From a virus: 64,000 nt of DNA. The notes under the pieces were generated by a model, which saw only the letters and a program-made list of their open reading frames with translations, had not been told where the DNA came from and ran no database searches. This document shows, piece after piece, positions 42,015 to 63,583 of this stretch (the first letter of the stretch is position 1; every line of letters starts with the position of its first letter). The DNA lies in the IMG/VR virus record IMGVR_UViG_3300020463_002275, positions 1-64,000 of that record; one strand, 5' to 3'. Both the position numbers and the translations under genes were made by a program.

Positions 42015-42020
42015 GATATT

Positions 42021-42049: not shown

Positions 42050-42089
42050 GCACAACATACATATACTTATTAATACGGAGAATTTTAAT

Positions 42090-46136: not shown

Positions 46137-47029
46137 ATCCATTTCTCCACTATTGCGTCCAATTTACAAGGACATGCTTTATAATTACACACTATAGGAT
46201 CCTCTGGTAGTGTGTATGCACCCGTTTTAAGATTACCCAAACTTCCACCAACACGTTTTGTACAACGTAGCATATTGCCATCTGGTTCTACCATTAATCT
46301 TTTTATACCTGCTGTACAAGTATATCCGTTGAATATATGCTTTTGTTGATCTAATACTTTCATAAACTTTAACGGATCACCATCAAAATGTAAGTTTCGA
46401 GGTATGGTCCAATCTATACCAAATGGCTTCATTTTATGCCATGCATTATTTTGTATCCATTCTCTTTGTTCGTCAGTGTATTTAAAATAGTTTGTACCAC
46501 CTATACTAGTCCTTGTAAATTTTGGAGTTATTTCTACTTTCAGATCAGTCAACCTATAATACAAAGACTTAGCACGTTCAAAATTATCTGGTGTAATCAT
46601 AAGTGGTATACTTACACTTGCTTTATGTTGCATAATTTTTGCAACTTCATAAAAATGATCATCGTCAGCAAATTCGTTATGCCAACTTAAAAAACAAAAT
46701 GCCCTGTGTGTTCTAAACTTTTCCCAATATCTTAAAGTCCTACTTGCGTTTGTACTAAATTCTACAAAAACTGTGTCTGAACTTATAGTATCTACAAAGT
46801 CCTGGAACTTAGGCCATAGTGTAGGTTCTCCGCCTAAAACTTCTACATAAAGATACTTGTTCTTTTTTTGCATTTTTTCAATAAGATCGATGTAGGGCTC
46901 CCATTCAGTTGGCCAACGTTCACTGCCATCTCTATGATAATCGTCACAGTAACTACAATTATAATTGCATACATTATGTATAAACAACGTGATAATAGCA
47001 CAGTCTAGATTTTCATTAGTTATGTGCAT
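46133..47029 (-). CDS. radical SAM enzyme with SPASM-like end, cassette B
   Basis: 298 residues. FIHNVCNYNCSYCDDY gives C21, C25, C28; VEVLGGEPTLWP is GGE. The C-terminal YTCTAGIKRLMVEPDGNMLRCTKRVGGSLGN and CNYKACPCK block parallels the 40905 enzyme (WRCNAGFSGLIIREPDG... and LGN...), marking the two as paralogues that head equivalent cassettes. The aux-cluster ending is usual for peptide-modifying enzymes. Confidence 0.85.
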   Translation of the reverse strand: MHITNENLDCAIITLFIHNVCNYNCSYCDDYHRDGSERWPTEWEPYIDLIEKMQKKNKYLYVEVLGGEPTLWPKFQDFVDTISSDTVFVEFSTNASRTLRYWEKFRTHRAFCFLSWHNEFADDDHFYEVAKIMQHKASVSIPLMITPDNFERAKSLYYRLTDLKVEITPKFTRTSIGGTNYFKYTDEQREWIQNNAWHKMKPFGIDWTIPRNLHFDGDPLKFMKVLDQQKHIFNGYTCTAGIKRLMVEPDGNMLRCTKRVGGSLGNLKTGAYTLPEDPIVCNYKACPCKLDAIVEKWI

Positions 47030-48372
47030 TAAAATAAATCCTTATATTGCGGTACAATATCTAAAATATTTTGATCACGTACTTTGTCAAGTTTTTTAGT
47101 TTGATCTACAAAATGTTCTAACCATTCCTCTGAATAGTCTTCGCTCATCATAAATTTTTCTACGCCATTTAAAACTTTTGCATAATTTCCTTTTACATGG
47201 TCACTAAAGTCTGTTGTTGCAATCCAATCCTTATGTTCTTGATAATAATCTTTTACTTGTTGTTTTAATTCAGGAGGCAAAACTTTTACATTAAAATATT
47301 TAGGACTATGACACATATGATGTGTAAGTATAGGTCTCATACCATCAATAGGATTAAATTTATCTAATCCACTTTCAGTAAGTTTCCATTTCATAAAATC
47401 TGCCATATGGAATACATTATAAGGTGTAACAGTAAACGCAAACCATGCTTTGAGATTAATTTTTTCATTTTGCTGTAGCGTCATCATATGTTTGTATACT
47501 GCATCAAACTTTGCAGGAGTGCGTTGATAGTTAAACACATCACCTATGCCATCTATACTAACACCAATTCTAATTTGTTTAAATTGTTCCCACAGATAAA
47601 CTAATCTATCAGGAACCATTGTAAGATTACTATTATATTCTAATTGTATCTGTTTACTTTTACCAGACGCTACTAAACGTTCTAAACTTTCTTGATGTTC
47701 TTTAATAATTAAAGGTTCGCCGCCAACTATATAAAGTTTTTTTGCTTTAGGCCCGTACTTTTCAAAATTACTCCAGTATCTATTATTATTTTGAAACCAA
47801 TCATATTGATCAGTATGCCACTTGCCTTTGGCATTTTTAGTAAGTTTAATTTTTTCATGTGTATCTTTGTATTCTGTTTTTCCTGTTATTGCAACAAAAT
47901 CATCATACCATTTATGACTGTCTGTAGGTCCACACATTCTACATTTTAAATTACAAAAATTACCGTATCGTACATCCATAAATTCGATTGGCAAACTTTC
48001 AGCATCAATAGTTCCATCTTCTTCAGTATGTGGTAACATTTTTTCTAAACTTATATCGCCAAACCATTTACCCCAATCGTCATTTTCATACTCACGTCTG
48101 CTACGAATACCGTTTACTTCTTCTTGTCGGCAACGTTCGCACTCAGGATGCCATTCGCCTTTCATCATTGACTTTCTTACTTCTTTTAGTATTTCTGCAT
48201 TACGTGCTTCGTTCCAATCATCTTTGCCTGCATTATACGGAGTACCATCTTCTTTAGACATGATACCACGCTTAGGACTGTAACTGTTTGTGTTACAACA
48301 AATACGCAAATCACCATTGTTACGCATGTTAATACTATTCCACGGTAATGGGCAAAAAGTACAATCACTCAT
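47029..48372 (-). CDS. twitch/SPASM radical SAM protein with N-terminal Cys domain
   Basis: 447 residues. The N-terminal region has CTFCPLPWNSINMRNNGDLRICC and HPECERCRQEE (C4, C7, C25, C26, C78, C81), an auxiliary Fe-S-type domain placed before the core. GNFCNLKCRMCGP gives C140, C144, C147; IVGGEPLIIKEH is GGE. This N-terminal-twitch architecture is shared with the next gene. Such proteins are common in marine T4-like phages with unknown substrate. Coupled to both neighbours. Confidence 0.85.
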   Translation of the reverse strand: MSDCTFCPLPWNSINMRNNGDLRICCNTNSYSPKRGIMSKEDGTPYNAGKDDWNEARNAEILKEVRKSMMKGEWHPECERCRQEEVNGIRSRREYENDDWGKWFGDISLEKMLPHTEEDGTIDAESLPIEFMDVRYGNFCNLKCRMCGPTDSHKWYDDFVAITGKTEYKDTHEKIKLTKNAKGKWHTDQYDWFQNNNRYWSNFEKYGPKAKKLYIVGGEPLIIKEHQESLERLVASGKSKQIQLEYNSNLTMVPDRLVYLWEQFKQIRIGVSIDGIGDVFNYQRTPAKFDAVYKHMMTLQQNEKINLKAWFAFTVTPYNVFHMADFMKWKLTESGLDKFNPIDGMRPILTHHMCHSPKYFNVKVLPPELKQQVKDYYQEHKDWIATTDFSDHVKGNYAKVLNGVEKFMMSEDYSEEWLEHFVDQTKKLDKVRDQNILDIVPQYKDLF

Positions 48373-49781
48373 TTGATATCCTCAAAAATATCTTTCATTT
48401 CAGGAAAAGTTTCTGCGAAAGAAATACCACGTTGCTTGTCACATAAATCTAAAAATTCTTTCATTTCAGGCAAGCGTTGTGTCCAATCTTCGCTTTCCAT
48501 AAACTGTAACATACCGTTAAGTCTGCTTATTCCATAACTAGCATTACGCCATGTATCATAATCAACTTTTCCTTTGTGCCAACTAGGAACACCTTTTTCC
48601 CAGTTTTCTTCCCACCACGGGTACCATGCTTCATATTTTTCACGACATTTTTCTTTAAACCACTTTGGTAAAATTTTAACATTAAGATGTGGTGGATGAT
48701 AAACAAAGTGATAATTAATAGCACCTGCACCAAATGGCCACATGTTAATTTTTTTAAAATTTTGTTCTAGTTTCCATTGTATAAAGTCAGGTAAGTAGTA
48801 AATGTTTAAAGCCTGTACTGCACAAGCAACTGTAACTTCTGTATTATTAGGTGTTTCGTTATCTAAAATATGAAACACTTCTTCTTGACGTTTCCAATTA
48901 CTAGGATAACGTATATAATCGTTCATTTCCTTAATACTATCTATTGAATAATGAAAACGTACTAATTTAAATTCTTTCCACAAGTCAAATAAATCTTCAC
49001 GCCATTCAACTCCATTTGAATTATAGCGTAGTTCTAAATCTTTTGCATATCCCATTTTAATTGCATGTTCAAGTATTTCGTAGTGTTCTTCAATAATAAG
49101 GCTTTCGCCTCCTGCAAAATAAATTTGTTGCATACTTGGCATTTGTTCATAAAACTGATTCCAAAATACAGGATTTTGTTTATGCCAATTATAACTACTT
49201 CCATTAAAACTACCTTTGTCTTTCCATTGCATAGTTTCTTTAAGACTTTCATCTTGTACTGCTGGAAAAATCTTTTTATAATCTTTAATCCATCCTGATG
49301 AATCATGAGGTGAACACATAACACAAGCAAGTTGGCACTTAGTTCCAAAACGTAAATCAATATATGCTAACTGTGGAGGTACACTTCCATCTTCTTTTGT
49401 ATCTGCAACTATTTTATCAACATCAACACGCTGACTCCAATAGTGTGTTTCCCACATACGTTTTGAATTATGTCCTGCGGCTTCTTCTTTGTAACACTTG
49501 ATACAACTTGGAGGCATTTCTCCGTTAAGCATTTGTTTACGCACATTCTTCATATATGTACTATTCCATGCTGTTTCAAAATCACTAACATTTAAGTTAT
49601 TAGGTCTTCCATGCTCATCTTTGAGAATACCAACTTGTCCTCCGTGTTCTTTATCGTTTGTAGGACCAACTGAACTTGCATTTGCAGTACAGCATACTCG
49701 CATGCTACCGTCAGGTCTAGTACTTAAATGTACCCAAGGTAGTAAGCAGAATGTTTCTGATGGTGATTTAAAGTCTTTCAT
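48369..49781 (-). CDS. twitch/SPASM radical SAM protein with N-terminal Cys domain
   Basis: 470 residues, paralogue of the 47029 protein. N-terminal FCLLPWVHLSTRPDGSMRVCC and PPSCIKCYKEEAAG (C12, C30, C31, C93, C96). Core GTKCQLACVMCSPHD gives C149, C153, C156; FAGGESLIIEEH replaces GGEP with GGES. The two proteins share the order N-terminal Cys domain, linker with DxRxG, core, and a long aromatic C-terminus. The gene pair probably arose by duplication. Confidence 0.85.
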   Translation of the reverse strand: MKDFKSPSETFCLLPWVHLSTRPDGSMRVCCTANASSVGPTNDKEHGGQVGILKDEHGRPNNLNVSDFETAWNSTYMKNVRKQMLNGEMPPSCIKCYKEEAAGHNSKRMWETHYWSQRVDVDKIVADTKEDGSVPPQLAYIDLRFGTKCQLACVMCSPHDSSGWIKDYKKIFPAVQDESLKETMQWKDKGSFNGSSYNWHKQNPVFWNQFYEQMPSMQQIYFAGGESLIIEEHYEILEHAIKMGYAKDLELRYNSNGVEWREDLFDLWKEFKLVRFHYSIDSIKEMNDYIRYPSNWKRQEEVFHILDNETPNNTEVTVACAVQALNIYYLPDFIQWKLEQNFKKINMWPFGAGAINYHFVYHPPHLNVKILPKWFKEKCREKYEAWYPWWEENWEKGVPSWHKGKVDYDTWRNASYGISRLNGMLQFMESEDWTQRLPEMKEFLDLCDKQRGISFAETFPEMKDIFEDIK

Positions 49782-50824
49782 TATAAGTGTACATCTCTAA
49801 CTAATTGTTTGCATTTTCTTACACAAACAAAATATGTTTGTAAGTGATCGTCTATAAGTTTCCAATAACCACCTATTATATCTACTAAATTTGTGTGGTG
49901 TAGATTATGTAAATTTTTATCAACTTTGTGTGTTTCCCAAAGTTGTTCAATCTCGTTTGGATTACCCATCCAACAACAAGGCGTTACATATCCTCTTGCA
50001 TCAACATATATATTGCCAAACTTCTTGTGAAATTCAGTATCGCCACTATTTGTTTTTGCAGGACATTTTACACAACTTATTTCAGTATTTGATTTGTGTG
50101 TTTCTTTCTTATCCTTATCACCAAATTTAATATCTGATATTTCTACATCGTCAATCTTGTTTGCATCGCTAGTATCATACCAATCTGGTACTTCAAATTT
50201 TGTATCTCTTTCGTTGTCAATTTCATCTACTACTTCTCTATCACTATGAATCAACATTAGTTTTGAAAATCCTTCTCGATCTAACCTTTCCTTTACATCA
50301 TCTAATTGATGTTTATTGTGCGAGAATACAATAAATTGCCAAACAGCATCTCCTCCTGCGGCAATGTATGCTCTAAAATTACGCTGTAGTATTTCCCATT
50401 TTACATTTCGTCTATAAAGATGATTAGTATCTTCTAAACCGTCTATACCAAAAACTACAGTTAACTTACCCTTTTTTTTACTAATACGACCTAACTTGTG
50501 CCAAAACGCAACATCTCTTGTACCACCATTGGTGCTAATTGATATTTTTTTTGTTTGTATACTTAATGTATGTGCCCATTGTACTAGATCTATTAATTCT
50601 GGATTAATAGATGGTTCATCAACACTTCCACAAAAATGAATATCTGTCAATTGATCCCAATTGTACTTACTAAACCATTTCTTGTAATTTTCTAACGTAT
50701 GTGCGGCATTATTAAGATCGCTTAAATGCATATCGGCTCTGTCGCATTGCGGACATGCCGCATTGCAATAATTTGTACATTCTAGTTGCAATCTACCAAC
50801 TTGTGTTGTATTAAACCATTCCAT
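49781..50824 (-). CDS. radical SAM/SPASM-type protein
   Basis: 347 residues. ECTNYCNAACPQCDRA gives C20, C24, C27 (C16 extra); FCGSVDEPSINPE replaces the GGEP motif. C-terminal auxiliary Cys: EISCVKCPAK, YVTPCCWMGN, FVCVRKCKQL. VFGIDGLEDTNHLYRRNVKWE is shared nearly word for word with the 50836 protein. An inserted acidic region (about 205-245) is unique. Overlaps the downstream gene by 1 nt. Confidence 0.85.
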   Translation of the reverse strand: MEWFNTTQVGRLQLECTNYCNAACPQCDRADMHLSDLNNAAHTLENYKKWFSKYNWDQLTDIHFCGSVDEPSINPELIDLVQWAHTLSIQTKKISISTNGGTRDVAFWHKLGRISKKKGKLTVVFGIDGLEDTNHLYRRNVKWEILQRNFRAYIAAGGDAVWQFIVFSHNKHQLDDVKERLDREGFSKLMLIHSDREVVDEIDNERDTKFEVPDWYDTSDANKIDDVEISDIKFGDKDKKETHKSNTEISCVKCPAKTNSGDTEFHKKFGNIYVDARGYVTPCCWMGNPNEIEQLWETHKVDKNLHNLHHTNLVDIIGGYWKLIDDHLQTYFVCVRKCKQLVRDVHL

Positions 50825-50835
50825 GATATACGTAC

Positions 50836-51924
50836 TTATCTGAACTGTTCACCGTAAGGATCGAACTCGGTGCCACACTTTTGAGAACAAACTCCAAGTT
50901 TACCATCTGCAACACTAGACTTATTCCAACTATTTGTTATGCTTCCGATTAGTTGTCCATTAACTACATCTTCTATATCATTTTCTATAATACTAATTCC
51001 TTGTTTTCCGCCAGCACTATCTATATGATCCCATATTTGTTCAACTTTAGGATCTGCATGCCACCACTTGTACATTCTTCCTGCTGTCCAACAACACGGC
51101 ATTAACAATCCCTCTGCTGTAACAAATATACTACCTTGCTTCGCAACTTTACATTTTATAGAACATTTGTCTAAATATTCTTTCATACTTCCATATGACT
51201 TTACTATTTCTGCTTGTTTTAACAATGCTAAATTTTTATTTTTTTCTTCTTTTGGTTGTTGCAGTTTTTGTGTTTCAGCACCTTTTCTGTTTACCGCTTG
51301 GTGATGATATTTAGGTTTTATATCAGTAGTTACAAATCTACCACTTTTCTTTTTAATAAATTTTTCACACCCCCATTGATTAGCAAGTGCTTCTGCTTCA
51401 TCTACTTGATGTTCGTTATGCTGAAATATTAAGAAATCCCAACGTGCTCTGCCTCCAGCATCAATAAATGCTTGCATGTTTCTTTCTACATTATCCCATA
51501 CAACATTTTGTCTGTATAGATGATTTGTATCACGCAATCCATCAACACTAAAAATAACAGCACCCTTTCTTCCTATTACTTCTGCTAATTTTGCCCACCA
51601 ATAGATATCTTTGGCGCCAGCATTAGTATTCATACTAAGCCACATATTAGAATTATGTTCTCTAAAATATTGAAATATTTCTAATGTATCTTTTGCAACT
51701 ATAGGATCTCCTAAGTTACCGCACATATACATAACATTCAATTGCTTGATAAATGAAGGACTAAACATACGCTTGGTATCTTCAATACTTAATTCAGCAT
51801 TTGTTATGTGAGGATTGTCAGCACCGCCATTCATATTACGATCACACATAGGACAAGCCGCCTGGCAACGTTGAGTCACCTCTAAATGAACTTCCTTAAT
51901 ATCTGCGAATCTATACATTCTCAT
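50836..51924 (-). CDS. radical SAM/SPASM-type protein
   Basis: 362 residues, paralogue of the 49781 protein. EVTQRCQAACPMCDRN gives C20, C24, C27; MYMCGNLGDPIVAKD stands at the GGEP position; IFSVDGLRDTNHLYRQNVVWD is the shared block. Auxiliary Cys: KCSIKCKVA, LMPCCWTAGR, GVCSQKCG. The CCW in both suggests a common SPASM-like cluster geometry. The start overlaps the kinase-like gene by 14 nt. Confidence 0.85.
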   Translation of the reverse strand: MRMYRFADIKEVHLEVTQRCQAACPMCDRNMNGGADNPHITNAELSIEDTKRMFSPSFIKQLNVMYMCGNLGDPIVAKDTLEIFQYFREHNSNMWLSMNTNAGAKDIYWWAKLAEVIGRKGAVIFSVDGLRDTNHLYRQNVVWDNVERNMQAFIDAGGRARWDFLIFQHNEHQVDEAEALANQWGCEKFIKKKSGRFVTTDIKPKYHHQAVNRKGAETQKLQQPKEEKNKNLALLKQAEIVKSYGSMKEYLDKCSIKCKVAKQGSIFVTAEGLLMPCCWTAGRMYKWWHADPKVEQIWDHIDSAGGKQGISIIENDIEDVVNGQLIGSITNSWNKSSVADGKLGVCSQKCGTEFDPYGEQFR

Positions 51925-52480
51925 TTTGTTTTAACAATTCACTTAACAAATGTGCTTTAAGTAGCACCGCTTGGCTATAACTTTTGTGTGAGATATTTAA
52001 AAAATTATTGTCTACTTTAAACGAATCAGCATCTATAAGTTTTATTTGACCGTCTGATGTAAAAACGATATTTGATAAGTTAATGTCGTCATGGAAAAAA
52101 TATTGACCTTTAGGAAGATGTTTTTCACTAAACTCAAGACAATCAAAATATACACGGTTGTAAAATTTTACAATCTTAAGAGCATTTTCTAATGTAGACA
52201 TTTTGTGCAATCTGTCGTACTCATCTGCTTCATCTAGTACATCGTATCCATCACAAACAATATCAAGACGTTCCATTTTATAAATATCTCTTGTTTTCCA
52301 TTCAATCGGCTTTACAACATAACTGTGATCTTTTGAAAATAGTACATATAAGTTGTAATATTCCTCTTCCCATCCCCTTTGACCAACTTTTATTATTTTT
52401 GTAGCATTTTTCTCTTGAAGTTTTATCGTAGCATTGTTTCTTTTAATTATTTTTGCGTTATAAAAATTTTTATCCATCAT
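51911..52480 (-). CDS. protein kinase-like/aminoglycoside phosphotransferase-fold protein
   Basis: 189 residues. The catalytic loop HDDINLSNIVF near residue 127 and KLIDADSF near 146 match the H-x-D-x(4)-N and D-x-D elements of kinase-fold small-molecule or LPS kinases. The N-terminal lobe is short (TKIIKVGQRGW gives the likely ATP Lys, then an E). ATP-dependent phosphorylation of a sugar, peptide or lipid is plausible. Coupled with the small 52470 gene and the radical SAM gene. Confidence 0.75.
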   Translation of the reverse strand: MMDKNFYNAKIIKRNNATIKLQEKNATKIIKVGQRGWEEEYYNLYVLFSKDHSYVVKPIEWKTRDIYKMERLDIVCDGYDVLDEADEYDRLHKMSTLENALKIVKFYNRVYFDCLEFSEKHLPKGQYFFHDDINLSNIVFTSDGQIKLIDADSFKVDNNFLNISHKSYSQAVLLKAHLLSELLKQNENV

Positions 52481-52694
52481 ATACCAACTTTACTTCTTTA
52501 CCAGGACCTACACGACTTGGTAAATCTCCATACTGTTCAATATACCATTCAATAACAGCCACATACCAATTTTGACTGTTGTGATGTGCTTGCTTGTTGA
52601 ACTTATAAATGTTATTATTAGTTGCTTCCATACAACTCAAGGCTCTAGCACTTTCAGTTTGTAATTGTCTAAGTGTTAATTTATTTGCGTCCAA
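52470..52694 (-). CDS. small hypothetical protein
   Basis: 74 residues, overlapping the end of the large fusion gene by 14 nt and the start of the kinase-like gene by 11 nt. LTLRQLQTESARALSCMEATN and WYVAVIEWYIEQYGDLPSRVG; a helical protein with two Trp. No family recognised. Cotranscribed within the long minus operon. Confidence 0.5.
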   Translation of the reverse strand: MDANKLTLRQLQTESARALSCMEATNNNIYKFNKQAHHNSQNWYVAVIEWYIEQYGDLPSRVGPGKEVKLVYDG

Positions 52695-55600
52695 TTTTCA
52701 TATACCTTGTGTATTGCCCTAAGTCAAGTTCTCCTTCATATAAAACTGTTTGCATAGGCGCACTTGCACTAAACTCTTGTAAACTGCTAGAGCAATTAAC
52801 ATGTTCTTCAATGCTAAAATAGTTATTACTTTGTAATATGATTAATCTTCCTTCGGGCAATAAATCATACCATTTAGAAAAATTATCAATATGCTCACAA
52901 CTTGTATTAATAATAGTGTGTGGCATTTCCGTCAACGGAGCAGTTGTTCCGTCAAGTCTTTCAGTTGTATAACTATGTTCAACGTAATCTATATCCATTA
53001 TATCTTGTGTTGTTGCTTTAAATTTCCATGTATCACTTACCAAGTCTGCATTGAATATTTCTGCTATTTTCCATGCTTTAGAATCTAAATCAAAACTTCT
53101 AATTTTCTCAAAATCTATTTTGTGTTCCTGTAACATCGGAACAACACTACTATACCAACCAGCACATAAAAATACTGTTCCTAAATCAGGACAAACTTTT
53201 TTTACTTCTTCCACTAACCACTTTTTACTTTTTAACTGACCTCTGCTCATTACGTCTTTATCATATTTAATATTTTGCTTATCAAGTACTTCTAATGGTT
53301 TAACATATAAACTACCTGTATATTTTTCTAATACACGCCATAATGCATGCCTATTATTATCCATAGTAAGATTGACTTCGTCAGTAACACTAGGTTCTAA
53401 TCTTTTAATACTCCAAATATTTTTAAATAGTCCTGCTTTCTTTATATCTTCTACTAATGTATCTTTGCCTTCGATTAATCTAAACAAACTCATTTCATTT
53501 GATTCGACTAATGCTTTTCTTAAATCTTCTGTGGTATCACTATTGTCTATAAGTCTAAACAAACTATGAACATTTTTTTCTGTAACTGCTTTACGTAAAT
53601 CTTCGTATTCATCTCCTAGTAATCTAAAAAGGCTATGTATGTTTTTTTCTGTAACTGCTTTACGTAAATCTTCATGATTGTCTCCAAGCAATCTAAATAG
53701 ACTATGAAGATTTTCTTCAACTACAGTCTTTCGTAGATCTTCATGTTCATCGCCAACTAGCCTAAACAAACTGTGTACATTATCTTCAGTAATTGCTTTA
53801 CGTAACTCTTCATGATCTTTACCTAATAATCTAAACAAACTATGCACATTTTTTTCAATATACATTTTTCTTATATCTTCAATACCTTCAATACCTTTAT
53901 CTTCTAGATATCTAAATAAACTATGGTAATTTCTTTCTTCTACAAATTTACGTAAATCTTCATTTCCGGTTATACGAAGAATGTCTAACATATGTCCATC
54001 ATTATAAAATCTTCTTAGATTAGTTACTTTATCACCGTACAGTATTTCAAATCTATCTAGCAAATCTACAATAAAATTATCTCTAGGCGGTAATGGGTCG
54101 TCTTCTTTAAAAGGTATTGTTTGTTTCCATTCAGTATCTGCTTGTATTTCTGTAAGTTCTATTTTAACAGGTTGTGTGTTAGATGTAGTTTCTTTATCAT
54201 TATACATCTGTTGCCATTCTTCTGTTGTATCTGTAGTTTCAGTAAACTGTTCATACAACCAATTGAAGTCATTTATTAACCTAAGATCAGACCCACTAGA
54301 AAGGCCAAACTCCATACCAGCGGTAGCACCTGCCAAAGCAAACTCCCCAAATGGTCTATCGCGTCCCACGGTTGTCCAAGTTTTAAGTCTTTCATTTGTT
54401 TCGTCCTCCTTTTGTCTATCAATTACTTTACTGCTTAGTTTTGCACATTCTCTAAATGCACTACGCCAAGTACTAAACTCGCTTGAATTAAATGCAGTTA
54501 TGCAAGATATTTTTTCCATTTTTTTAAATCTATCACTAATACTTGTAGTCATATCAGGACGACTAGTATCCATATCACGAGTCATTTGTGTTGGAAATAA
54601 TTTTACACCGCCATATCCGTATACTAAATCATTTATAGGATTTTGACTACGCCATACGTGTACTGCTCTGTTATCTTCAGCAATATAATCAAAGTTAAAA
54701 TCATCTGCAATTACAGCATCACCATCTACAATCCAAAACATTTCAGTCGAACAAACGTTTGCCGCGGCAATATGTGCTTGATGTATTCCTTTTACTCCAT
54801 GTATACGTTGGGCTCTTGGAAAACGTGTTTTTAACTTATTAAAGTTTTCGTCGGCGTTTGCTTCGTCATAAGATATCATTACAATATCATATTCAGTTTT
54901 TTTAGTAGGAACAAAGTTAGACGAAAAAGTGTTAAATTGCGTTGTATTTGTACGTATATAAGGATGTTCAGGTCTTGGTGGGTTGCGGTATGTATTTTTA
55001 AAAAACTTGCTCTGTTGAGCATCTAAGGGCGTTACAGCAATAGGTAATTCTATATCTGCAAGTATACGTTCACCGTAATCTTCAATTGCTTCTAGTAAGT
55101 CACTTTCGTCTTGCACTTTATTTTTCCAAAGATCATTTAAGTATTCAAAGTCGCGTACATTAATATACTCCCAATCAGTACACATTGTTTTGTGCAATCC
55201 TTCTCTGGCTCCATAAATTGCCCATAATCCGTTAGTTACATCTGCGCCTGCCATACACCAGACATATAGTCTTTCCAAATTTTTCCAATGATTTCCTATG
55301 AGTTCTTTTTTTGCAGGTTTGATACCTTCAATTAAACACATTTTTACACCTTCTCGGAAACCGGCACGCCATGCTTGGTGTGGTGTAGCATTATTATGAA
55401 CAGTACTCATTAAACTATTAATTTGTATGTACTCAAGGTCCCAACAAAAATCAATACCTGCCGCTATATTATCAGGATCTGCATTTTCGTGTGTTTTCAT
55501 TTTTAGGACAGTTTCTCTATCCCAACACTTTATACCACCATTTCCGTAACGCAGTCCGTTAATAATATTATCAGCAGTCCAACTAACAACGTGTCTAGTA

Positions 55601-55857
55601 AGATCAACACCTTCTTGAAAGTTAATCACTTCGTTCAAGAATTGTTCATCTATTTGATTATCACCATCGATGGTAATAAATCTTTTTGTTTTGGCTATTT
55701 CTGCACAGGCTTTGTGAGCGGCATCTGATCCTTCTACACCGTGTATACGTTTAGCCCACGGAACTTTAGTTAATAAGTTCGTGTAATTTTCTTCTGCATT
55801 TGGCTCGTCATATGACAAATATATGATATCATAATCTAAAACTTTAAATTGCTTCAT
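52681..55857 (-). CDS. fusion: two GT-A glycosyltransferase-like domains, 23-residue repeats, methyltransferase-like domain
   Basis: 1058 residues. Domain 1 (about 1-270) starts YDIIYLSYDEPNAEENY and has TIDGDNQID, a GT-A D-x-D. Domain 2 (about 320-575) repeats it: YDIVMISYDEANADENF, then IVDGDAVIADDF. Residues about 622-800 form eight or so tandem repeats of 22-27 residues with consensus HSLFRLLGDxHEDLRKAVTExN. The C-terminal part (about 860-1055) has VFLCAGWYSSVV, FDLDSKAWKIAEIFNAD and INTSCEHI, like a class I SAM methyltransferase. Both GT domains retain acidic motifs. Probably a large cytoplasmic glycan- or protein-modifying enzyme, or a virion protein; the target is unknown. Confidence 0.75.
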   Translation of the reverse strand: MKQFKVLDYDIIYLSYDEPNAEENYTNLLTKVPWAKRIHGVEGSDAAHKACAEIAKTKRFITIDGDNQIDEQFLNEVINFQEGVDLTRHVVSWTADNIINGLRYGNGGIKCWDRETVLKMKTHENADPDNIAAGIDFCWDLEYIQINSLMSTVHNNATPHQAWRAGFREGVKMCLIEGIKPAKKELIGNHWKNLERLYVWCMAGADVTNGLWAIYGAREGLHKTMCTDWEYINVRDFEYLNDLWKNKVQDESDLLEAIEDYGERILADIELPIAVTPLDAQQSKFFKNTYRNPPRPEHPYIRTNTTQFNTFSSNFVPTKKTEYDIVMISYDEANADENFNKLKTRFPRAQRIHGVKGIHQAHIAAANVCSTEMFWIVDGDAVIADDFNFDYIAEDNRAVHVWRSQNPINDLVYGYGGVKLFPTQMTRDMDTSRPDMTTSISDRFKKMEKISCITAFNSSEFSTWRSAFRECAKLSSKVIDRQKEDETNERLKTWTTVGRDRPFGEFALAGATAGMEFGLSSGSDLRLINDFNWLYEQFTETTDTTEEWQQMYNDKETTSNTQPVKIELTEIQADTEWKQTIPFKEDDPLPPRDNFIVDLLDRFEILYGDKVTNLRRFYNDGHMLDILRITGNEDLRKFVEERNYHSLFRYLEDKGIEGIEDIRKMYIEKNVHSLFRLLGKDHEELRKAITEDNVHSLFRLVGDEHEDLRKTVVEENLHSLFRLLGDNHEDLRKAVTEKNIHSLFRLLGDEYEDLRKAVTEKNVHSLFRLIDNSDTTEDLRKALVESNEMSLFRLIEGKDTLVEDIKKAGLFKNIWSIKRLEPSVTDEVNLTMDNNRHALWRVLEKYTGSLYVKPLEVLDKQNIKYDKDVMSRGQLKSKKWLVEEVKKVCPDLGTVFLCAGWYSSVVPMLQEHKIDFEKIRSFDLDSKAWKIAEIFNADLVSDTWKFKATTQDIMDIDYVEHSYTTERLDGTTAPLTEMPHTIINTSCEHIDNFSKWYDLLPEGRLIILQSNNYFSIEEHVNCSSSLQEFSASAPMQTVLYEGELDLGQYTRYMKIGRK
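53460..53995 (-). repeat. tandem ~69-bp coding repeats
   Basis: Within the fusion gene, units encoding 22-27 residues, four of exactly 23, share HSLFRLLG...EDLRKAVTE. DNA identity between adjacent units is high in places (CTGTAACTGCTTTACGTAAA twice), suggesting recent expansion or ongoing length variation. Confidence 0.8.
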
Positions 55858-56371
55858 CTACATATCCATAAGTGTTAAATATCTTTGGTGTGTATATACT
55901 TACATCACCTTCTTCGTCATCATATTCGAACTGAACTGTATGTCCGTTTGCTATTTGTTCTACTGTAGCGTCAAATGTTCTAATTAATAAATGCGGATCA
56001 TTTGCTTTTGTAATACTAAACTTGCACACTTGATTAGGATTTAACAAAAGGTTTTCTTTTACGTTTACAAACAATTTCCAATTACGCCATTTTATATTTC
56101 TTGTGATTATACAATCTGCATTGTCTTGTTTAGGAATATGATAAATTACATCTTTTATATCATAACTAAATTTTGGCTGTTCGTATTCTAATAATGTATA
56201 TTCTTTTTTTGCCAAATCAAACTTTACAACATAATTTTGTTTTTTGTCTGGGTTTTCCATAAAGTCAACATATAAGTCTTCGTCTACTTCTAAAGCATAT
56301 TCATGATCAGGAGTATAGTTTTGTAAACCTGTTACTTTACTTGTATCTTTATCAAATATTAACCAGTACAT
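55844..56371 (-). CDS. hypothetical protein, possibly structural
   Basis: 175 residues, overlapping the fusion gene start and the GT gene end. MYWLIFDKDTSKVTGLQNYTPDHEYALEVDEDLYVDF and FSITKANDPHLLIRTFDATVEQ: beta-rich with no catalytic motif. The first block resembles a tail-chaperone or appendage-type beta domain. The location between two glycosyltransferase genes suggests it is either a substrate or an assembly partner. Confidence 0.5.
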   Translation of the reverse strand: MYWLIFDKDTSKVTGLQNYTPDHEYALEVDEDLYVDFMENPDKKQNYVVKFDLAKKEYTLLEYEQPKFSYDIKDVIYHIPKQDNADCIITRNIKWRNWKLFVNVKENLLLNPNQVCKFSITKANDPHLLIRTFDATVEQIANGHTVQFEYDDEEGDVSIYTPKIFNTYGYVDEAI

Positions 56372-57165
56372 TGTTCATACCTTGCTAAAATTTTATTACA
56401 AAAATCTTTTTCTGTATAATGAAATACTCCGTGTTGTCGGTGGTTGCCAATTTTCAAACCATCATTAAAATACCAATCAACTTTTTGTTGCCAATGCTCA
56501 CTGGTATCTACCCAATTTTGAGCATGTAATTTCATATGTACAAAATCTATTATGTCTACGTCTTGAAAATTATCATATTCCATAAGTTCTAATACTATGG
56601 CCGCACAAACATCAATACTACAATGTTTAGGTTTATGATTTTTACAGAATATTTCATAAAAATCTTCCCAATTTTCTATTACAGTTTCTAGTAGTGCAAA
56701 AAAGTTTGCAACACGTTTTGTTTTTTTAAAGTAATACAATCCTGTATACACATTTATTAGGTAATTTTGTGAAAAGACTTTTCTGTAATAGGTATCATTA
56801 ATAGGTTCTTGTCTATATGTAATAGGATTTTGTGTAAAATATAGTTCTTGATCTTTAAACTTAGACCAATTAATTTTTTCTAAAAACAAAACATCGCTGT
56901 CAACAACTATTGTTTCGTCATATGGCGAAAGGTTAAAGGCTTTCCATCTGTTTTCTATTTTCCATTCACTACTTTTTGCTTGATCATGTTTTAACACAAT
57001 AACTTTGTCGAATACAAAAGCAGTTTTTTGGTCAACTTCTTTGTCTGTTACTAAAGTAAAATGCATATTATTATTTTTCATACCGCTCATTGCACATAGG
57101 TATGCTTGTTTTACATAATCATCTGTAGAATTATTTTGTGCAAATATCAAAACACCTTGTTTCAT
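56359..57165 (-). CDS. GT-A fold glycosyltransferase-like protein
   Basis: 268 residues. NHFTLVTDKEV-like strand, then ETIVVDSDVLFLEKINW near residue 89 with the D-x-D metal/nucleotide-sugar motif. The order GVLIFAQNNSTDDYVKQAYLCAMSG at the N-terminus is shared with the 57162 paralogue. No signal peptide. Transfers a sugar to an unknown acceptor; the phage's own tail fibres or a small molecule are candidates. Confidence 0.75.
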   Translation of the reverse strand: MKQGVLIFAQNNSTDDYVKQAYLCAMSGMKNNNMHFTLVTDKEVDQKTAFVFDKVIVLKHDQAKSSEWKIENRWKAFNLSPYDETIVVDSDVLFLEKINWSKFKDQELYFTQNPITYRQEPINDTYYRKVFSQNYLINVYTGLYYFKKTKRVANFFALLETVIENWEDFYEIFCKNHKPKHCSIDVCAAIVLELMEYDNFQDVDIIDFVHMKLHAQNWVDTSEHWQQKVDWYFNDGLKIGNHRQHGVFHYTEKDFCNKILARYEQCTG

Positions 57166-57950
57166 AGTATTTCCTCTAGACTGTACTTGTTCATAGCATG
57201 TACTGTAAGTCCTTTTGTAGCAATCGGATTATCATCAATAAAAAACATAAGTTTATCTTCATTTATTTCGTGTGTAATATCTTTATCAATAGTATAAAAA
57301 AGTTTTCCTGGCATAGGATTAACAAAATTACCTTTAGAATGATTGTTCATTATATGAGCACCAATACTAAAAGCAAAATCGTTTCTATATGTTTGCTGTA
57401 CTATTTGATATAACATTCTATAGTGGCGCCATTGCTCTTCAATATGCTGTAATAAATCAAAAAATATTTTGTTTTGTTTACATTTTACAAAATACACACA
57501 AGTTGCCCAATAAAAGTCTACACTTGAATCGCTTATTTTATCAAATTGACGATAATCTAAATTTTGTCCCAGATGATATGCATCTTTATACATTAGTAAA
57601 GGATGTGTTTGCTTAAAGCAATTTTTATAAACGTCATCACATATGATTATGTCACTATCTATCATAAGTGTCTGATCATATGGAGACAATTCATAACTTA
57701 AAACCCTTGCATTATTTTTAAATGTTAAATGTTTGCCACTATTACCATTGTTATATAATTTGCTTGTATATCTTTGTGGTGTTTTGAAATCAATTACTTT
57801 ATCAAAAACATTATCTGGAACTTTACAGTCAGTAATTACACTTGTTGGTAAATTAAGATACTTCTTTGCACGTTCTGCAACCATACATGCTTGCTTGACG
57901 TAATCTATTTCTTCATTATTAAATGCATGTACTAGTATACCTTTAGACAT
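57162..57950 (-). CDS. GT-A fold glycosyltransferase-like protein
   Basis: 262 residues from ATG 57950, which overlaps the end of the upstream small gene. KGILVHAFNNEEIDYVKQACMVAERA at the N-terminus and QTLMIDSDIIICDDVYKN near residue 98 (D-x-D) match the 56359 protein in order and spacing. The two genes are a tandem paralogue pair, ATGA-coupled. Confidence 0.75.
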   Translation of the reverse strand: MSKGILVHAFNNEEIDYVKQACMVAERAKKYLNLPTSVITDCKVPDNVFDKVIDFKTPQRYTSKLYNNGNSGKHLTFKNNARVLSYELSPYDQTLMIDSDIIICDDVYKNCFKQTHPLLMYKDAYHLGQNLDYRQFDKISDSSVDFYWATCVYFVKCKQNKIFFDLLQHIEEQWRHYRMLYQIVQQTYRNDFAFSIGAHIMNNHSKGNFVNPMPGKLFYTIDKDITHEINEDKLMFFIDDNPIATKGLTVHAMNKYSLEEIL

Positions 57951-58278
57951 TAAGGATTCCTTGTACAGTTCTTTCACTATCAACTATTTTTTGATATTCA
58001 GAATGATAACTTTCTGAGGCTTTTGTAAATGCTGTGACTAATTCGTTATAAAATGCTTCTTTATTTTTAATTTTAATAGGAGTGTTATTATTGTCTACAA
58101 AAATATCACTTTTTAGTGCTAGTATACTTGCAATAAATTCTCTAGTGGCAGTAAATTGCCCGCCTTCATAATAGACAGTGCATTCTTTTGTATACTTTTC
58201 TTGTAATATGCGTTTTTGGTTTTTAAATGTTGTAACGTAATCTGCATGTTCTAATGCTTTTTTAAGACGTTGATCCAT
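57943..58278 (-). CDS. helical phage protein, first gene of the long minus operon
   Basis: 111 residues, TGGAG seven bases before the ATG. MDQRLKKALEHADYVTTFKNQKRILQEKYTKECTVYYEGGQF, then EFIASILALKSDIFVDNN. Its position right after tail genes and the look of the sequence suggest a tail assembly or baseplate-associated protein; I recall similar small genes near T4-like cyanophage tail fibres. A strong promoter lies just upstream. Confidence 0.55.
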   Translation of the reverse strand: MDQRLKKALEHADYVTTFKNQKRILQEKYTKECTVYYEGGQFTATREFIASILALKSDIFVDNNNTPIKIKNKEAFYNELVTAFTKASESYHSEYQKIVDSERTVQGILNV

Positions 58279-58329: not shown

Positions 58330-59277
58330 TTAACTACCACTAAAATTGGATTGTCTATTGAGTTGAGGTAATGGTGTATTAACATATACACCACTGGCTC
58401 TTTTGAATCCCATTGTAGTAGTAAGATTGCCTACTACATACTCGTCGATTGGAACAACACCTTTTGCTCCAGAAGTATTACCAGTGTCTGCTTCTTCCAT
58501 ACGTATACGGAATTCTATTGTAGAACTGTTTACTTCTTTGCCTCTAATATAATAGTTGTTATCTGCGTAAACTCCACTACCTGTTTTTCTAAAAAGTTGC
58601 TGTTCTGATGAAGTTAATTGAAAGTTTCCTATAGCACTACCTGTACCACTGTTACTTGTGGAAGTATAATTGTAACCAAATGATACTGTGCCTGCATTAG
58701 AAAGCATTGTTGCCCAGTCATTTGTTTTTGCAACGTTAGCGCCTGATGCTGTGCTAGATAAACTGCTGACAAATGTTATTGTTCCGCCAGCATTAAAAAA
58801 ATGCCTACGAGCATCTGCACTTGAAAACACTACTCTAAAATAACCATTAAGTTCTTGATTCCATTGTGTAGGTCCAAAGGTTAATGTATCAGGATCAGTT
58901 CCTGATGTACTTTGTAATGCTGATAATCTAAATCTATTTGGATTATTTTCCAATACAGACATAGTATTTTCATAATCAGCAAAACCTTTTAAAACTCCGT
59001 CTGGGTTATCACTTGTTTCATCTGCAATTAAATCACCTATTAATGCTTGTGCTATTGTTCCTGCAGAACTTTGATTTGTTTGATGTCTGCTTATTCTGTC
59101 AATATCAGTATAAAGTTGATTTAGATGTGTGGCTGTTACTAGATTACCTACAGCAACTTGTGAACTTGCTGTATTTTCTCCATATCCTTCGTTACCAGAT
59201 CCAATAGCAAGGATATTTTCTACCCTTGTTTGCAAATTATTATATCTAGTTGCGGTAATTAAATCACCAACGGCCAT
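58330..59277 (-). CDS. tail-associated structural protein, paralogue pair
   Basis: 315 residues. The N-terminal MAVGDLITATRYNNLQTRVENILAIGSGNEGYGE is almost the same as in the next gene. The middle DARRHFFNAGGTITFVSSLSSTASGANVAKTNDWATML is also shared, as is the end with ASGVYVNTP.LP. The block recurs as an internal duplication of the first 30 residues (VGNLVTATHLNQLYTDI). Similar proteins occur among T4-like cyanophage tail fibre clusters. Beta-rich, structural. Confidence 0.7.
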   Translation of the reverse strand: MAVGDLITATRYNNLQTRVENILAIGSGNEGYGENTASSQVAVGNLVTATHLNQLYTDIDRISRHQTNQSSAGTIAQALIGDLIADETSDNPDGVLKGFADYENTMSVLENNPNRFRLSALQSTSGTDPDTLTFGPTQWNQELNGYFRVVFSSADARRHFFNAGGTITFVSSLSSTASGANVAKTNDWATMLSNAGTVSFGYNYTSTSNSGTGSAIGNFQLTSSEQQLFRKTGSGVYADNNYYIRGKEVNSSTIEFRIRMEEADTGNTSGAKGVVPIDEYVVGNLTTTMGFKRASGVYVNTPLPQLNRQSNFSGS

Positions 59278-59329
59278 TTACTCTTCTCCAATTATATAGT
59301 AAAAATGATACTATACTTTATTAATTATG

Positions 59330-60238
59330 TCAAAGACTATTTGTAGCCGAAAATGCTGGCGCTGGTGTATCAACAAAAGACCCACTTGCTCTCACAAATC
59401 CTATTTTGGCTTCTAATAATCCTTGAACTGGTTCATCAATTTTATAACCACCCGGGTTATCATCATAAAAATTGTATTTCACACTAATCGTAGAACTAGT
59501 AGGCGCCTTAGCATAAAGAATGTAATTATTATTTCCATACACTCCTGTTGCTGATTTTCTATATATTTCTTGATACGAAGTTGTTAAGTCAAAATTGCCA
59601 ATACTTTGTACAACACCTGTTCCTGATGTTGTTGTTTCTTGATAATTCATGCTTACTGTTCCTGCATTTCCAAGTATAGATGCCCAGTCTTGACTTTTTG
59701 CAACACTATCTCCTGAAGTAGGAGTTCCGCTTAATGAACTTATAAAAGTAAGCGATCCTCCAGCATTAAAAAAATGTCTACGTGCATCACTATCTGCAAA
59801 CGATACTTGAAATTCACATTCAATTGGTGCTGTCCATTGATTTCTACGTTGAATTACTTCAGCGTTATTCAGTGTACTACTTTGTGCTGATGCTAATCTA
59901 AATCTATTTCCTACTGTTTCTATTATACTAATAAAATCTTCGTAGTCTTTGAAACCTTCTTTTGTATCTGCTCCACTAGTATCTTCAGCAACCGAATCTC
60001 CTACCTCAACTTCTGCGATAGAATTTGGAGCACCACCTGTTTGGTGAACAAAAATTTTGTTTAAATCTGTAAACATAGCATTAACGTGGCTTACATTTAT
60101 TACAACATTGCTTGATACTTGCCCACTGGTTACAGTTTGACCATAACCTTCGTTACCTGATCCATTGCCAAGGATTGCACTTACTCTTCCTTGTGCATTG
60201 TTGTATCTTGCGGCTGTTATTAAATCGCCAACTGCCAT
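59330..60238 (-). CDS. tail-associated structural protein, paralogue pair
   Basis: 302 residues, paralogue of the 58330 protein across the whole length: MAVGDLITAARYNNAQGRVSAIL, DARRHFFNAGGSLTFISSLS, then ASGSFVDTPAP at the end. Divergence is highest in the central domain and in the loops, as expected for surface-exposed receptor-contact regions. Ten bases after the larger tail gene. Confidence 0.7.
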   Translation of the reverse strand: MAVGDLITAARYNNAQGRVSAILGNGSGNEGYGQTVTSGQVSSNVVINVSHVNAMFTDLNKIFVHQTGGAPNSIAEVEVGDSVAEDTSGADTKEGFKDYEDFISIIETVGNRFRLASAQSSTLNNAEVIQRRNQWTAPIECEFQVSFADSDARRHFFNAGGSLTFISSLSGTPTSGDSVAKSQDWASILGNAGTVSMNYQETTTSGTGVVQSIGNFDLTTSYQEIYRKSATGVYGNNNYILYAKAPTSSTISVKYNFYDDNPGGYKIDEPVQGLLEAKIGFVRASGSFVDTPAPAFSATNSL

Positions 60239-60248
60239 GCCTGCTTCC

Positions 60249-61730
60249 TTATACTTTTAAAACACACTCTATTAACTGCTCCGTATCAGAAGTGCTTGAT
60301 TCTAATGCAACACCTACTAATCCGTTACTAGCAATAGTTGAAGCAACACCGTCCTGCCATGCATAAACTGCTTGTCCTTTTGATACTGGACCTTTTACTC
60401 TTACTGGCACACGACCTTTTAAGCCGACTGCTTGTCCTTCGGACATACTATTCATTAAATATGCTGGTGATTCTGAAATGACACCTATAGCAAAATCACT
60501 TACTTTTGCTGGACGAACTTCTTTTTCTCCGCCTACTGCTACTACTGTTCCTATTGGTAAATGTTCGTTTGTTTCATAATTCTCTGCAAGGTCTGCGTAT
60601 TGTGCTTGTGTTGCTGTTCCTCTAAAGAAATTAGCATGTAAATCACCCGAACTATCTCTTAATGCTGTTGTGCTTGCAATAGCACTTGTGTCTCCTGCAT
60701 AATCTGCACTATTAAATCTAATAGCATTTGCACTAGAAGCATTTCCTTGAAAATTATCTGCCCAAACATTTGACCATTTTGCAATACTTGATCCTAATGT
60801 ATATGTACTTGTTGCACCTGGATTTATTCCTGTTGATTGAATAACTACACTATTTGTTTGTACACTATTTGCATTACTTGTTTTAAATCTAATAATATTA
60901 TTTGTACCAACTTCATTTGCAATTACGCCTTGGTTACCATTTTCAATATAAATGTGTAAATCGTTTTGATCACCTATTGTAACACCTGCATCTGGAAATC
61001 TTACAATATCTTCAAACTCAGTTGCAGTTCCTGGTGTACTTTGTACAAAACTGCTTGCTTCTAAACCATTAAGTTTCAAAGCATTACTTGCCGTTCCCCA
61101 ATAATAATGTCCTACAGGTGTTGTAACTCCATTAGTTGCATCGGTTGTATTAACAAGTGTTAAACCTTTCTTGACTACATCAAATCCTGTAATAGCATTT
61201 AACGGATCAGTACCGTCAATAGTAAATTCTTGTCCGCTTATAATATAGATAATTTCATCTTCGATTGTTGCGGCAATTACACTATGGTTTATGCTTGCAA
61301 CATCACGAATTGTTTTACTCTGCATCTGTGTAAGACCTGAACCAGCACCTTGCGGTCCAACTAATACAAATGATGTTCCGTTATATGTATATAATTGACT
61401 GTTTCCTGAATCCCACCAAAAGTCACCTGCTGTTAAACCTGCAGGCTGTGAGGTTGAAACTTCTGCACCGCCTGTTGTTTTAAACTTTGAACCATCGTAG
61501 AATTTAATTTTTCCGTTTGTTGAGTCATGCCATATCTGTCCGCTAACTGGTTTAGGCGGTTGTGATGTTCCGCTAAAGTTTTCTAACAAAAACAAAAAGT
61601 TTTCGTTTTGTATTTCGCCGTATCCGGCATAGTTCTTACCAACAAATGTTAAATCTGTTGTAAGATCAACGGTGCCATCTTGCACTACTACTAGTGTTGC
61701 TCCGTTGTATTTGTTAATTGTATAAGCCAT
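60249..61730 (-). CDS. tail fibre-like protein with C-terminal peptidase G2-like domain
   Basis: 493 residues. The N-terminal repeat MAYTINKYNGATLVVVQDGTVDLTTDLTFVGKNYAGYGE then GQIWHDSTNGKIKFYDG is shared with the 61763 protein. Body beta-rich. The C-terminal YADLAENYE, IGTVVAVGGEKEVRP and LKGRVPVRVKGPVSKGQAVYAW resembles the peptidase G2-type autoproteolytic end of phage tail fibres. Probably a tail fibre or tail-fibre hinge component. Confidence 0.75.
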   Translation of the reverse strand: MAYTINKYNGATLVVVQDGTVDLTTDLTFVGKNYAGYGEIQNENFLFLLENFSGTSQPPKPVSGQIWHDSTNGKIKFYDGSKFKTTGGAEVSTSQPAGLTAGDFWWDSGNSQLYTYNGTSFVLVGPQGAGSGLTQMQSKTIRDVASINHSVIAATIEDEIIYIISGQEFTIDGTDPLNAITGFDVVKKGLTLVNTTDATNGVTTPVGHYYWGTASNALKLNGLEASSFVQSTPGTATEFEDIVRFPDAGVTIGDQNDLHIYIENGNQGVIANEVGTNNIIRFKTSNANSVQTNSVVIQSTGINPGATSTYTLGSSIAKWSNVWADNFQGNASSANAIRFNSADYAGDTSAIASTTALRDSSGDLHANFFRGTATQAQYADLAENYETNEHLPIGTVVAVGGEKEVRPAKVSDFAIGVISESPAYLMNSMSEGQAVGLKGRVPVRVKGPVSKGQAVYAWQDGVASTIASNGLVGVALESSTSDTEQLIECVLKV

Positions 61731-61754
61731 GTTTCAACCCTTTAATTATAACTA

Positions 61755-61762
61755 TATTTATC
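61755..61762 (-). promoter_or_regulatory. T4-late-like promoter box GATAAATA
   Basis: GATAAATA on the minus strand, lying wholly in the 32-bp gap between two tail genes and 25 nt before the ATG of the downstream one. Confidence 0.5.
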
Positions 61763-63583
61763 TTACACACTAGATGTAAGGTTTTGGCTAAATGTCCAAT
61801 TCCCACCTGATGTGACGTATTCCTTTAATGATCTTGTTACACTAACTGTAACTGATCCAGTTGCGTTTGTAAAACCAATATCTTGTAATACTGATTCATT
61901 TTGTACTCCTGCGGCGTCTACTGCTATAAACGATTTAGTTGTGACTGCTGTTATATCAATACCTGTAACACTTGCACCGCCAAGTGTTGTACAGTGAATT
62001 TTTGCAGTTGTACCGTTTGCAACAGTACTTGCATTAACTAAGTCGTTTAGCACTAAGCCAATTTGTGTATCATTTAATCCTGTAATATCCATACTAAATG
62101 AAATAGCCGCCGCTGAAATTGATTCATCAACATATTGTTTTGATGCTCCATCTGTTGCTTGTGTTGGTAATGCTAAAGCAGTAATTTTTTGATTTGCTAG
62201 ATTTACGTCACCGTTTCCGTTAATCGTAAGTCCACTAGCACCTGTAATTGTACTACCATTAATATTGATATTATCAACATCTAAATTAACTAGTGTACCT
62301 ACGGTTGTAAGGCTAGATGCTGTAACACCGCCTCCTAATGTTGTAGCACTTAGTACTGATGATCCTGCAATTTTGTATTCGTTACCTGTTGTAACATTAA
62401 TATTTTCTGTTGCTGTCCAACTATTAGTTGCTTGTATCCAAGTCCATTTTTTGTCTGCTCCTGTAACTCTTATAACCATACCAGCATCGTCTACGCCTGC
62501 ATCTGTTAACAAAGTACTGTCGCTAGTAATAGCAAGTTCAATTTGTTTATCTTCTACTCTTAAAGTGCTTACATCTATACTTGCACTAGATCCTTCTACT
62601 AATAAATTTCCTGTTACACGAATATCTCCTGTAACATCTAATGTATACTCTGGTGTGTTATCAAAAATACCTACACGTTTGTTTGCCGCGTCTATGAATA
62701 CAGCATCAATTTGTTGTGCCCCTGCGGCTGTACTTGTAACTCTTATTGCATAGTTTTCATCTAATTGTGCATTCGCTGTAACAAATGAATTACCTATAAT
62801 ACTTAAAGTTTGGTTAGCATTAGGTCCTATAGTAACCCCTGATGAATTACTAACTGTTAGAGAACCAGTAATAGTGTTATTTGTTGTTGAACTTACAAAG
62901 TTATCAGCACCAACTTTCGTACCGTCTGCTTTTATTAATGCCTTTGCCGCATCTGCTGTTCCTTCAAATATAAAATTATCTTTGTCAATTACGTTTATAC
63001 CTTTTTTGATATTACCTGTAATACCATCTATTGTGTATCCTACTGCTGGGGTAAATTCAACATTACTAATAACAGCGGCTCTTGCTGTTGAACCATCAGT
63101 ACCATTACCTAAATATAAACTTGCAAGTGTACGACTTCTGTCTTGAGTGTCAAGCACACTTTCAATTCTAAATCCTGTCTCACCTTGTTTTGATTTGTAT
63201 ACCGGTCCTGCTAATGTAGGATTACCTGATCCATCAAAAAAGTATAACTGATCATTTACATTGTCAATCCATAGATCACCAGCAACCATAGCAGGTTGTT
63301 GTTTTTGTACAAAAGGTCCACCAACATATTTAAAATATGTACCTTCATAAACTTTTACACGGGCTTCACCTGTATCAAACCAAAGTTGTCCTTTTATAGG
63401 ATTAGTTGGACTATTAGAATTACTAAAATTTTCTAGTAGTTTTATAAAATTTTCATTAAATGCTTCGCCGTATCCTGTATAATTTCTACCTACTAATGTA
63501 AGCGAAGTACTGTTAACATCAATAGTTCCATCAATTAAATCTACTAGTAACGTGCCGTCTGTTTTGTTTAGTTTATACGCCAT
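61763..63583 (-). CDS. tail fibre-like structural protein
   Basis: 606 residues. Shares the N-terminal repeat (VGRNYTGYGEAFNENFIKLLENFS, GQLWFDTGEARVKVYEG, QPAMVAGDLWIDN) with the 60249 protein, giving evidence of duplication. The later part has LDVTGDIRVTGNLLVEG and ALPTQATDGASKQYVDESI, typical tail-fibre repeat words. The end is Ser/Thr/Val-rich beta structure. The start overlaps the next gene by one base. Confidence 0.75.
   Translation of the reverse strand: MAYKLNKTDGTLLVDLIDGTIDVNSTSLTLVGRNYTGYGEAFNENFIKLLENFSNSNSPTNPIKGQLWFDTGEARVKVYEGTYFKYVGGPFVQKQQPAMVAGDLWIDNVNDQLYFFDGSGNPTLAGPVYKSKQGETGFRIESVLDTQDRSRTLASLYLGNGTDGSTARAAVISNVEFTPAVGYTIDGITGNIKKGINVIDKDNFIFEGTADAAKALIKADGTKVGADNFVSSTTNNTITGSLTVSNSSGVTIGPNANQTLSIIGNSFVTANAQLDENYAIRVTSTAAGAQQIDAVFIDAANKRVGIFDNTPEYTLDVTGDIRVTGNLLVEGSSASIDVSTLRVEDKQIELAITSDSTLLTDAGVDDAGMVIRVTGADKKWTWIQATNSWTATENINVTTGNEYKIAGSSVLSATTLGGGVTASSLTTVGTLVNLDVDNININGSTITGASGLTINGNGDVNLANQKITALALPTQATDGASKQYVDESISAAAISFSMDITGLNDTQIGLVLNDLVNASTVANGTTAKIHCTTLGGASVTGIDITAVTTKSFIAVDAAGVQNESVLQDIGFTNATGSVTVSVTRSLKEYVTSGGNWTFSQNLTSSV

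Follow-up and report, generated by a model that had tools for sequence, protein, structure and literature searches.

We report that an uncultured marine bacteriophage encodes, in a single chain, two tandem domains of GT-A glycosyltransferase (GT) fold, an array of 23-residue repeats and a C-terminal domain of class I methyltransferase (MTase) fold, and we suggest, at a probability of about 0.6, that this fused protein is a trifunctional enzyme of glycan assembly, which would add two sugars and methylate what results, its repeats forming a solenoid that belongs to the MTase. The gene lies in a window of 64,000 nucleotides (positions 1 to 64,000 of IMG/VR record IMGVR_UViG_3300020463_002275), where its open reading frame spans 52681–55857 (−) and specifies 1058 aa in the order GT-A1, GT-A2, 23-residue repeats, MTase. 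The folds, the intact DxD motifs, the gene order, the history of fusion and the conservation of the surrounding cassette are established by the results below, and it is from the parts, their order, their repeated fusion and the glycan contexts in which they occur that we propose this function.

The reading frame is not an artefact. It contains no internal stops, in independent viral contigs full-length relatives, 61–99% identical, have an equally long open frame, and dN/dS is 0.05–0.12 across all folded parts, indicating purifying selection on every domain; the retention of the frame in relatives and the low dN/dS mark the 1058-residue ORF as a real, selected protein. The highest dN/dS, 0.17–0.25, falls in the variable linker between the second GT domain and the repeats (54046–54222 (−), residues 546–604), most of which is modelled at low confidence (pLDDT 32–55 over residues 551–590). 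Structures were predicted with AF2 as two models, one of the GT-A1/GT-A2 part (590 aa) and one of the repeat-MTase part (459 aa), each from an alignment of 85–86 relatives taken from related loci. The overall layout, a 1058-residue fusion of tandem GT-A domains, 23-residue repeats and a methyltransferase-like domain, had been proposed in a sequence-only reading of this DNA and was confirmed by the ORF, BLASTP, TRF and AF2. One related fused ORF (L015:4178-6949) stops after the repeats at 923 aa, and a translated match runs on from there to the contig end; this short form is either a natural truncation or a sequencing error.

GT-A domain 1 (54982–55857 (−), residues 1–292) was delimited by AF2, Foldseek and invariance, and GT-A domain 2 (54223–54897 (−), residues 321–545) by BLASTP, VIA and invariance. 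The two had been described as internal duplicates from a motif quoted for each; both motifs are present, and residues 1–290 align with residues 319–600 at 33% identity over 236 residues (BLASTP, E 6e-34). The GT-A1/GT-A2 part is modelled at pLDDT 87, and a Rossmann-like GT-A core was found with AF2, Foldseek and VIA. In Foldseek the best solved match (E 7e-7) is K4CP, a chondroitin polymerase with tandem GT-A domains, as would be expected of the nucleotide-sugar fold that had been predicted for these domains, and it is followed by LH3, WrtF and GalNAc-transferases, the top matches all being GTs or GT-containing; in VIA the GT part matches B4GALNT1 along 143 residues, with Z 11.6. The DGD motif is invariant in domain 1 (D64/D66; 53 of 53 rows) and in domain 2 (D378/D380; 59 of 59), and both domains keep an F-R-E-x-x-K stretch and a G-x-G-G-x-K stretch, the third G of the latter being A in 3 of the 59 domain-2 rows. 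Curated GT families in Pfam and NCBIfam gave sub-threshold matches only (DUF6492 at E 0.004, Glycos_transf_2 at E 0.23), and the GT-A1 family had no match among 50,697 records of isolated phages, even at E 0.1. In a chromosomally encoded protein of the Bdellovibrionota (L317:5895-9557) the same GT-A family is joined to a pair of canonical GT2 domains (Pfam, E 1e-34). This 1220-aa protein carries the GT-A domain at its N-terminus and, by eye, a radical SAM-like CxxxCxxC motif in a part with no Pfam match.

The C-terminal domain (52684–53292 (−), residues 856–1058), delimited by AF2, Foldseek, VIA and conservation, folds as a class I MTase, with VIA Z scores of 16.7 to AbBioC and 16.5 to NodS over ~160 residues and a Foldseek match to solved structures at E 6e-6; the repeat-MTase model has a pLDDT of 94.7. 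The sequence-only reading, which had expected a SAM-binding fold here, is thus borne out at the level of the fold. An NTSCEH segment (residues 984–989) and the acidic residues D923/D925 are nearly invariant. The canonical motif I, GxGxG, is absent from the domain, and a conserved A-G-W-Y (A899–Y902; LCAGWY) takes its place. As motif I is variable across the class I SAM-MTase superfamily, this substitution weakens the case for SAM binding without excluding it, and the predicted binding is based on the fold together with the acidic and NTSCEH residues. A NeuB match on the N-terminus of the MTase (E 0.006) came from a single member only and was rejected. At some related loci (L062, L065, L081, L087, L117 and L142) two MTase genes lie side by side, one copy being very divergent and on long branches.

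The repeat array (53308–54045 (−), residues 605–850) was identified by TRF, a repeat HMM and AF2. TRF detects a 69/138-bp periodicity at 53549–53881, and the repeat HMM picks out four canonical units of 23 residues at 670–761, which start at residues 670, 693, 716 and 739. The canonical 23-mers lie at residues 670–785 (53503–53850 (−)), with degenerate units on either side extending the array to about residues 605 and 850. AF2 models the array as short helix pairs (pLDDT 75–97), and on this model the repeats, which lie between the GTs and the MTase, would form a helical solenoid rather than a coiled coil, so that the term scaffold, applied to them in the sequence-only reading, is plausible. 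The same reading had not recognised the repeats as a known family, and neither Pfam nor NCBIfam has a model for them. Among curated repeat families HEAT matched at E 0.003, under the cutoff, and ARM matches were weak, while the only phmmer matches of the array were to designed Armadillo proteins, at an E of 6e-6 that is prone to low-complexity bias. Pfam matches of the repeats to BBS2_CtH, DUF4197 and Wtap were short and of low complexity and were rejected.

Neighbouring repeats had been called near-identical and taken to imply rapid length change. The likeness holds in protein, where neighbouring units are 65–87% identical, but not in DNA, where they are 67–83% identical and dS ranges from 0.86 to saturated, at or above the divergence between the window and its relative L003 in the other domains (dS 0.4–0.8). 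Because synonymous sites are near-saturated, the similarity of the repeats is maintained mostly by selection, and an origin of the array in recent slippage was rejected on the same ground; most unit duplications are older than the split between the window phage and L003. Rapid length change is therefore an overstatement, as units next to each other did not arise by fresh duplication (dS about 0.9 to saturated). Relatives do differ in array length, that of L003 equalling the window's plus three units' worth (69 residues) at 91–93% identity elsewhere, and on this evidence the rate of length change is moderate.

In related viral contigs GT1, GT2 and the repeat-MTase are usually separate genes in a fixed order, and most neighbouring genes overlap briefly (the gta2–mt pairs mostly at −59 to −1 nt). 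A tree of 136 MTase domains requires two gains of the fused state, with support on the starred branches, one in a 20-row clade that includes the window and the other in L169/L185, where the linker lacks repeats. The fused gene thus derives from separate genes and arose at least twice; neither this nor the conserved radical-SAM cassette nearby features in the sequence-only reading. Repeat counts, which were made by motif matching and are approximate, are 0–5 per MTase in unfused genes and up to about 10 in fused ones, expansion having occurred mainly in the fused clade. The split systems carry their repeats at the N-terminus of the MTase, not between enzymes, and no repeats were seen away from an MTase-bearing gene in any locus read; as the linker of the second fusion is free of repeats, we assign them to the MTase N-terminus.

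Directly downstream of the fused gene (51911–52480 (−)) is a kinase-like gene of 189 aa with a weak Pfam Pkinase match (E 0.07) and, by eye, HDDINLSN and IDADS motifs, which is present in only 12 related loci. Upstream are two putative GT-A-like genes (56359–57165 and 57162–57983, together 56359–57983 (−)), with a DSD by eye and weak Pfam matches, which are kept in about 140 related loci. A radical SAM cassette identified with Pfam and NCBIfam (40905–51924 (−); genes 40905, 42655, 46133, 47029, 48369, 49781 and 50836) includes two N_Twi_rSAM genes, 47029 and 48369, scoring 420 and 352 bits, and this downstream region also holds PP-loop, PLP-like, TauD and Asp/Asn-hydroxylase genes. Similar pairs of PP-loop and PLP-like genes at 39406–40903 and 44521–46142 are apparently copies of a duplicated two-gene module. 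In the collection of papers searched, none dealt with twitch-domain radical SAM proteins in phages. Farther upstream (58330–63583 (−)) are a paralogous pair (58330, 59330) and two tail-fibre- or virion-structural-like genes (60249, 61763; PHROGs), and just past the window an ORF of at least 4586 aa (L319:2240-16000; record 66240–80000) runs in the same direction as the tail-fibre-like genes. The phage record also contains two NDP-sugar epimerase/dehydratase-like genes; no ABC transporter (PF00005) was found in its 181,934 bases, which may be a fragment, in a search that detected the positive controls. A comparable setting is known in the host recognition clusters of pelagimyophages, where a hypervariable island by the tail fibres carries GT and radical SAM genes (PMC7029224), the combination seen around the phage fusion, and the corresponding region of Pelagibacter phage Mosig has a distant (27%) MTase copy. 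The window phage differs, however, in a DNA polymerase nearest to those of jumbo phages (Sinorhizobium phage Phosso, 45%) and in the lack of a VrlC match, and although that absence alone is weak, its identity as a pelagimyophage was rejected.

Judged by architecture, the nearest proven analogue appears to be A064R of the chlorovirus PBCV-1, a single viral chain of 638 aa in the order GT-GT-MT, whose GTs and MTase have been assayed and which builds and methylates the end of the capsid glycan (PMC9614988). Both proteins are virus-encoded and share the order GT, GT, C-terminal MTase, but A064R has no repeat array and comes from a virus of eukaryotic algae; no relation in sequence was detected, profiles of the phage domains matching no solved chain at E≤1, and A064R domain 1 is absent among the fold matches listed. 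By this analogy the glycan-capping role offered in the sequence-only reading is reasonable, and its glycan context is supported; the processivity offered there as one option is conjectural. The nearest parts list that includes a spacer is that of ORF6-O7 and E. coli WbdD/WbdA. Klebsiella pneumoniae ORF6-O7 unites an MT, a coiled coil and two GT2 domains in one chain (PMC11231755), WbdD is a kinase-MTase (PMC3482155), and coiled coils set chain length in WbdD, WbbB and ORF6-O7 (PMC11231755, PMC3482155). In ORF6-O7, as one chain, and in WbdD/WbdA, as partners, the MTase and the tandem GTs are parted by a long helical spacer, and in the phage fusion, too, the domain order and the helical array place an extended spacer between the GTs and the putative terminator. 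ORF6-O7, WbdD and WbbB have an N-terminal MTase and a coiled-coil ruler and lie in ABC-transporter O-antigen loci, whereas the phage protein has a C-terminal MTase and a repeat solenoid, with no ABC transporter in the record. K4CP (PDB 2z86, 2z87) likewise has tandem GT-A domains in one chain, but it is ~10% identical and lacks both MTase and repeats, and the match does not imply that the phage fusion polymerises.

We propose that each GT-A domain would transfer one sugar from a nucleotide-sugar and that the C-terminal MTase would methylate the end of the glycan so made, or a substituent of it. In the fused clade a rigid helical solenoid would span the gap between them, and may keep GTs and MTase a fixed distance apart, or bind the acceptor. 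The enzyme would act within a phage-encoded pathway that comprises the radical-SAM enzymes and further GTs, beside the tail-fibre genes, and the glycan that it targets most likely sits on proteins of the phage's own tail or virion, or else on the surface of the host cell. As the parts occur as separate, adjacent genes beside radical-SAM enzymes in related phages and certain predatory bacteria, the fusion looks like one finishing step in making a sugar coat. What we infer in this scheme is the donor sugars, the acceptor and the product, where the methyl group goes, in which order the domains act and what the repeats do.

The role of the repeats is where the main alternatives arise. They might instead have no part in spacing and serve as an arm that binds proteins, docking the MTase on a partner or on its acceptor (a radical-SAM enzyme or a tail protein, for example). 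Helical solenoids often bind peptides, the link to designed Armadillo proteins (prone to low-complexity bias as it is) points the same way, and the N-terminal placement of repeats on stand-alone MTases is what such an arm would predict; yet it is chiefly in the fused clade, where a spacer would be of more consequence, that the array expanded. We therefore hold a pure docking role to be possible but doubtful. The opposite emphasis would make the protein a polymerase, ruler and terminator in one, the GTs polymerising a two-sugar repeat, the MTase capping it with the help of the kinase-like neighbour, and array length setting chain length. ORF6-O7 offers the same parts with a spacer in the same position between GTs and MT (PMC11231755), the kinase-like gene recalls the kinase-MTase WbdD (PMC3482155), and the spacer is modelled as ordered helices and ranges widely in length among relatives. 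We nevertheless think this unlikely, given that most relatives are split genes with 0–5 repeats, that the independent fusion in L169/L185 has none, that the kinase-like gene is so patchy, that the phage record shows no ABC transporter, and that the solenoid is not a coiled coil. Quite unlikely, in our estimate, is a variant in which the array is a tunable ruler of a kind other than a coiled coil, gain and loss of repeats resetting how long a glycan of the surface or virion becomes in a radical-SAM-assisted pathway. If the repeats do set spacing, they would be a helical-repeat counterpart to the coiled-coil rulers of O-antigen synthesis.

A further alternative concerns the first two domains, one or both of which, within the same Rossmann-like class, could resemble nucleotidyltransferases or be binding modules without catalytic activity. 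VIA ranks IspD- and MobA-type nucleotidyltransferases at Z 10–11, tied just below B4GALNT1 and so level with GTs. Against this, the top Foldseek matches are without exception GTs or GT-containing, DGD is invariant in both domains, and L317 fuses the family to canonical GT2 domains, and we consider this alternative very improbable. The reading as a trifunctional glycan-assembly enzyme remains the one we favour.

None of the three domain families is fitted by a Pfam or NCBIfam model, and sequence profiles of the domains matched no solved chain at the E-value given above. Each enzyme family nevertheless occurs in more than 590 uncultivated viral contigs, and the gene order, the two fusions and the conserved radical-SAM cassette now link these two families and the repeat family to one another, providing a concrete way into a glycan pathway common to uncultured phages and bacteria. 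MTase homologues also occur in bacterial genomes. In Rhizobiales (Sinorhizobium, Brucella; L281, L290) chromosomal homologues adjoin GT28-like and GT4 genes, the Sinorhizobium one lying also near an ABC transporter. In Bdellovibrionota (L252, L271, L280, L318) the GT-A gene, usually with the MTase, adjoins radical-SAM homologues whose identity to the phage proteins is mostly 57–62% for N_Twi_rSAM 48369, 63–65% for 40905 and about 30–46% for 50836. These cassettes sit on long contigs with ordinary chromosomal neighbours, and the GT-A family was found in 9 of 144 sampled Bdellovibrionota genomes; the GT/MT/radical-SAM cassette is thus common to phages and Bdellovibrionota chromosomes. The collection of papers searched contained none on radical SAM, GT and MT genes together in Bdellovibrio. 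Three other bacterial loci (L231, L232 and L258) may be viral contigs in bins.
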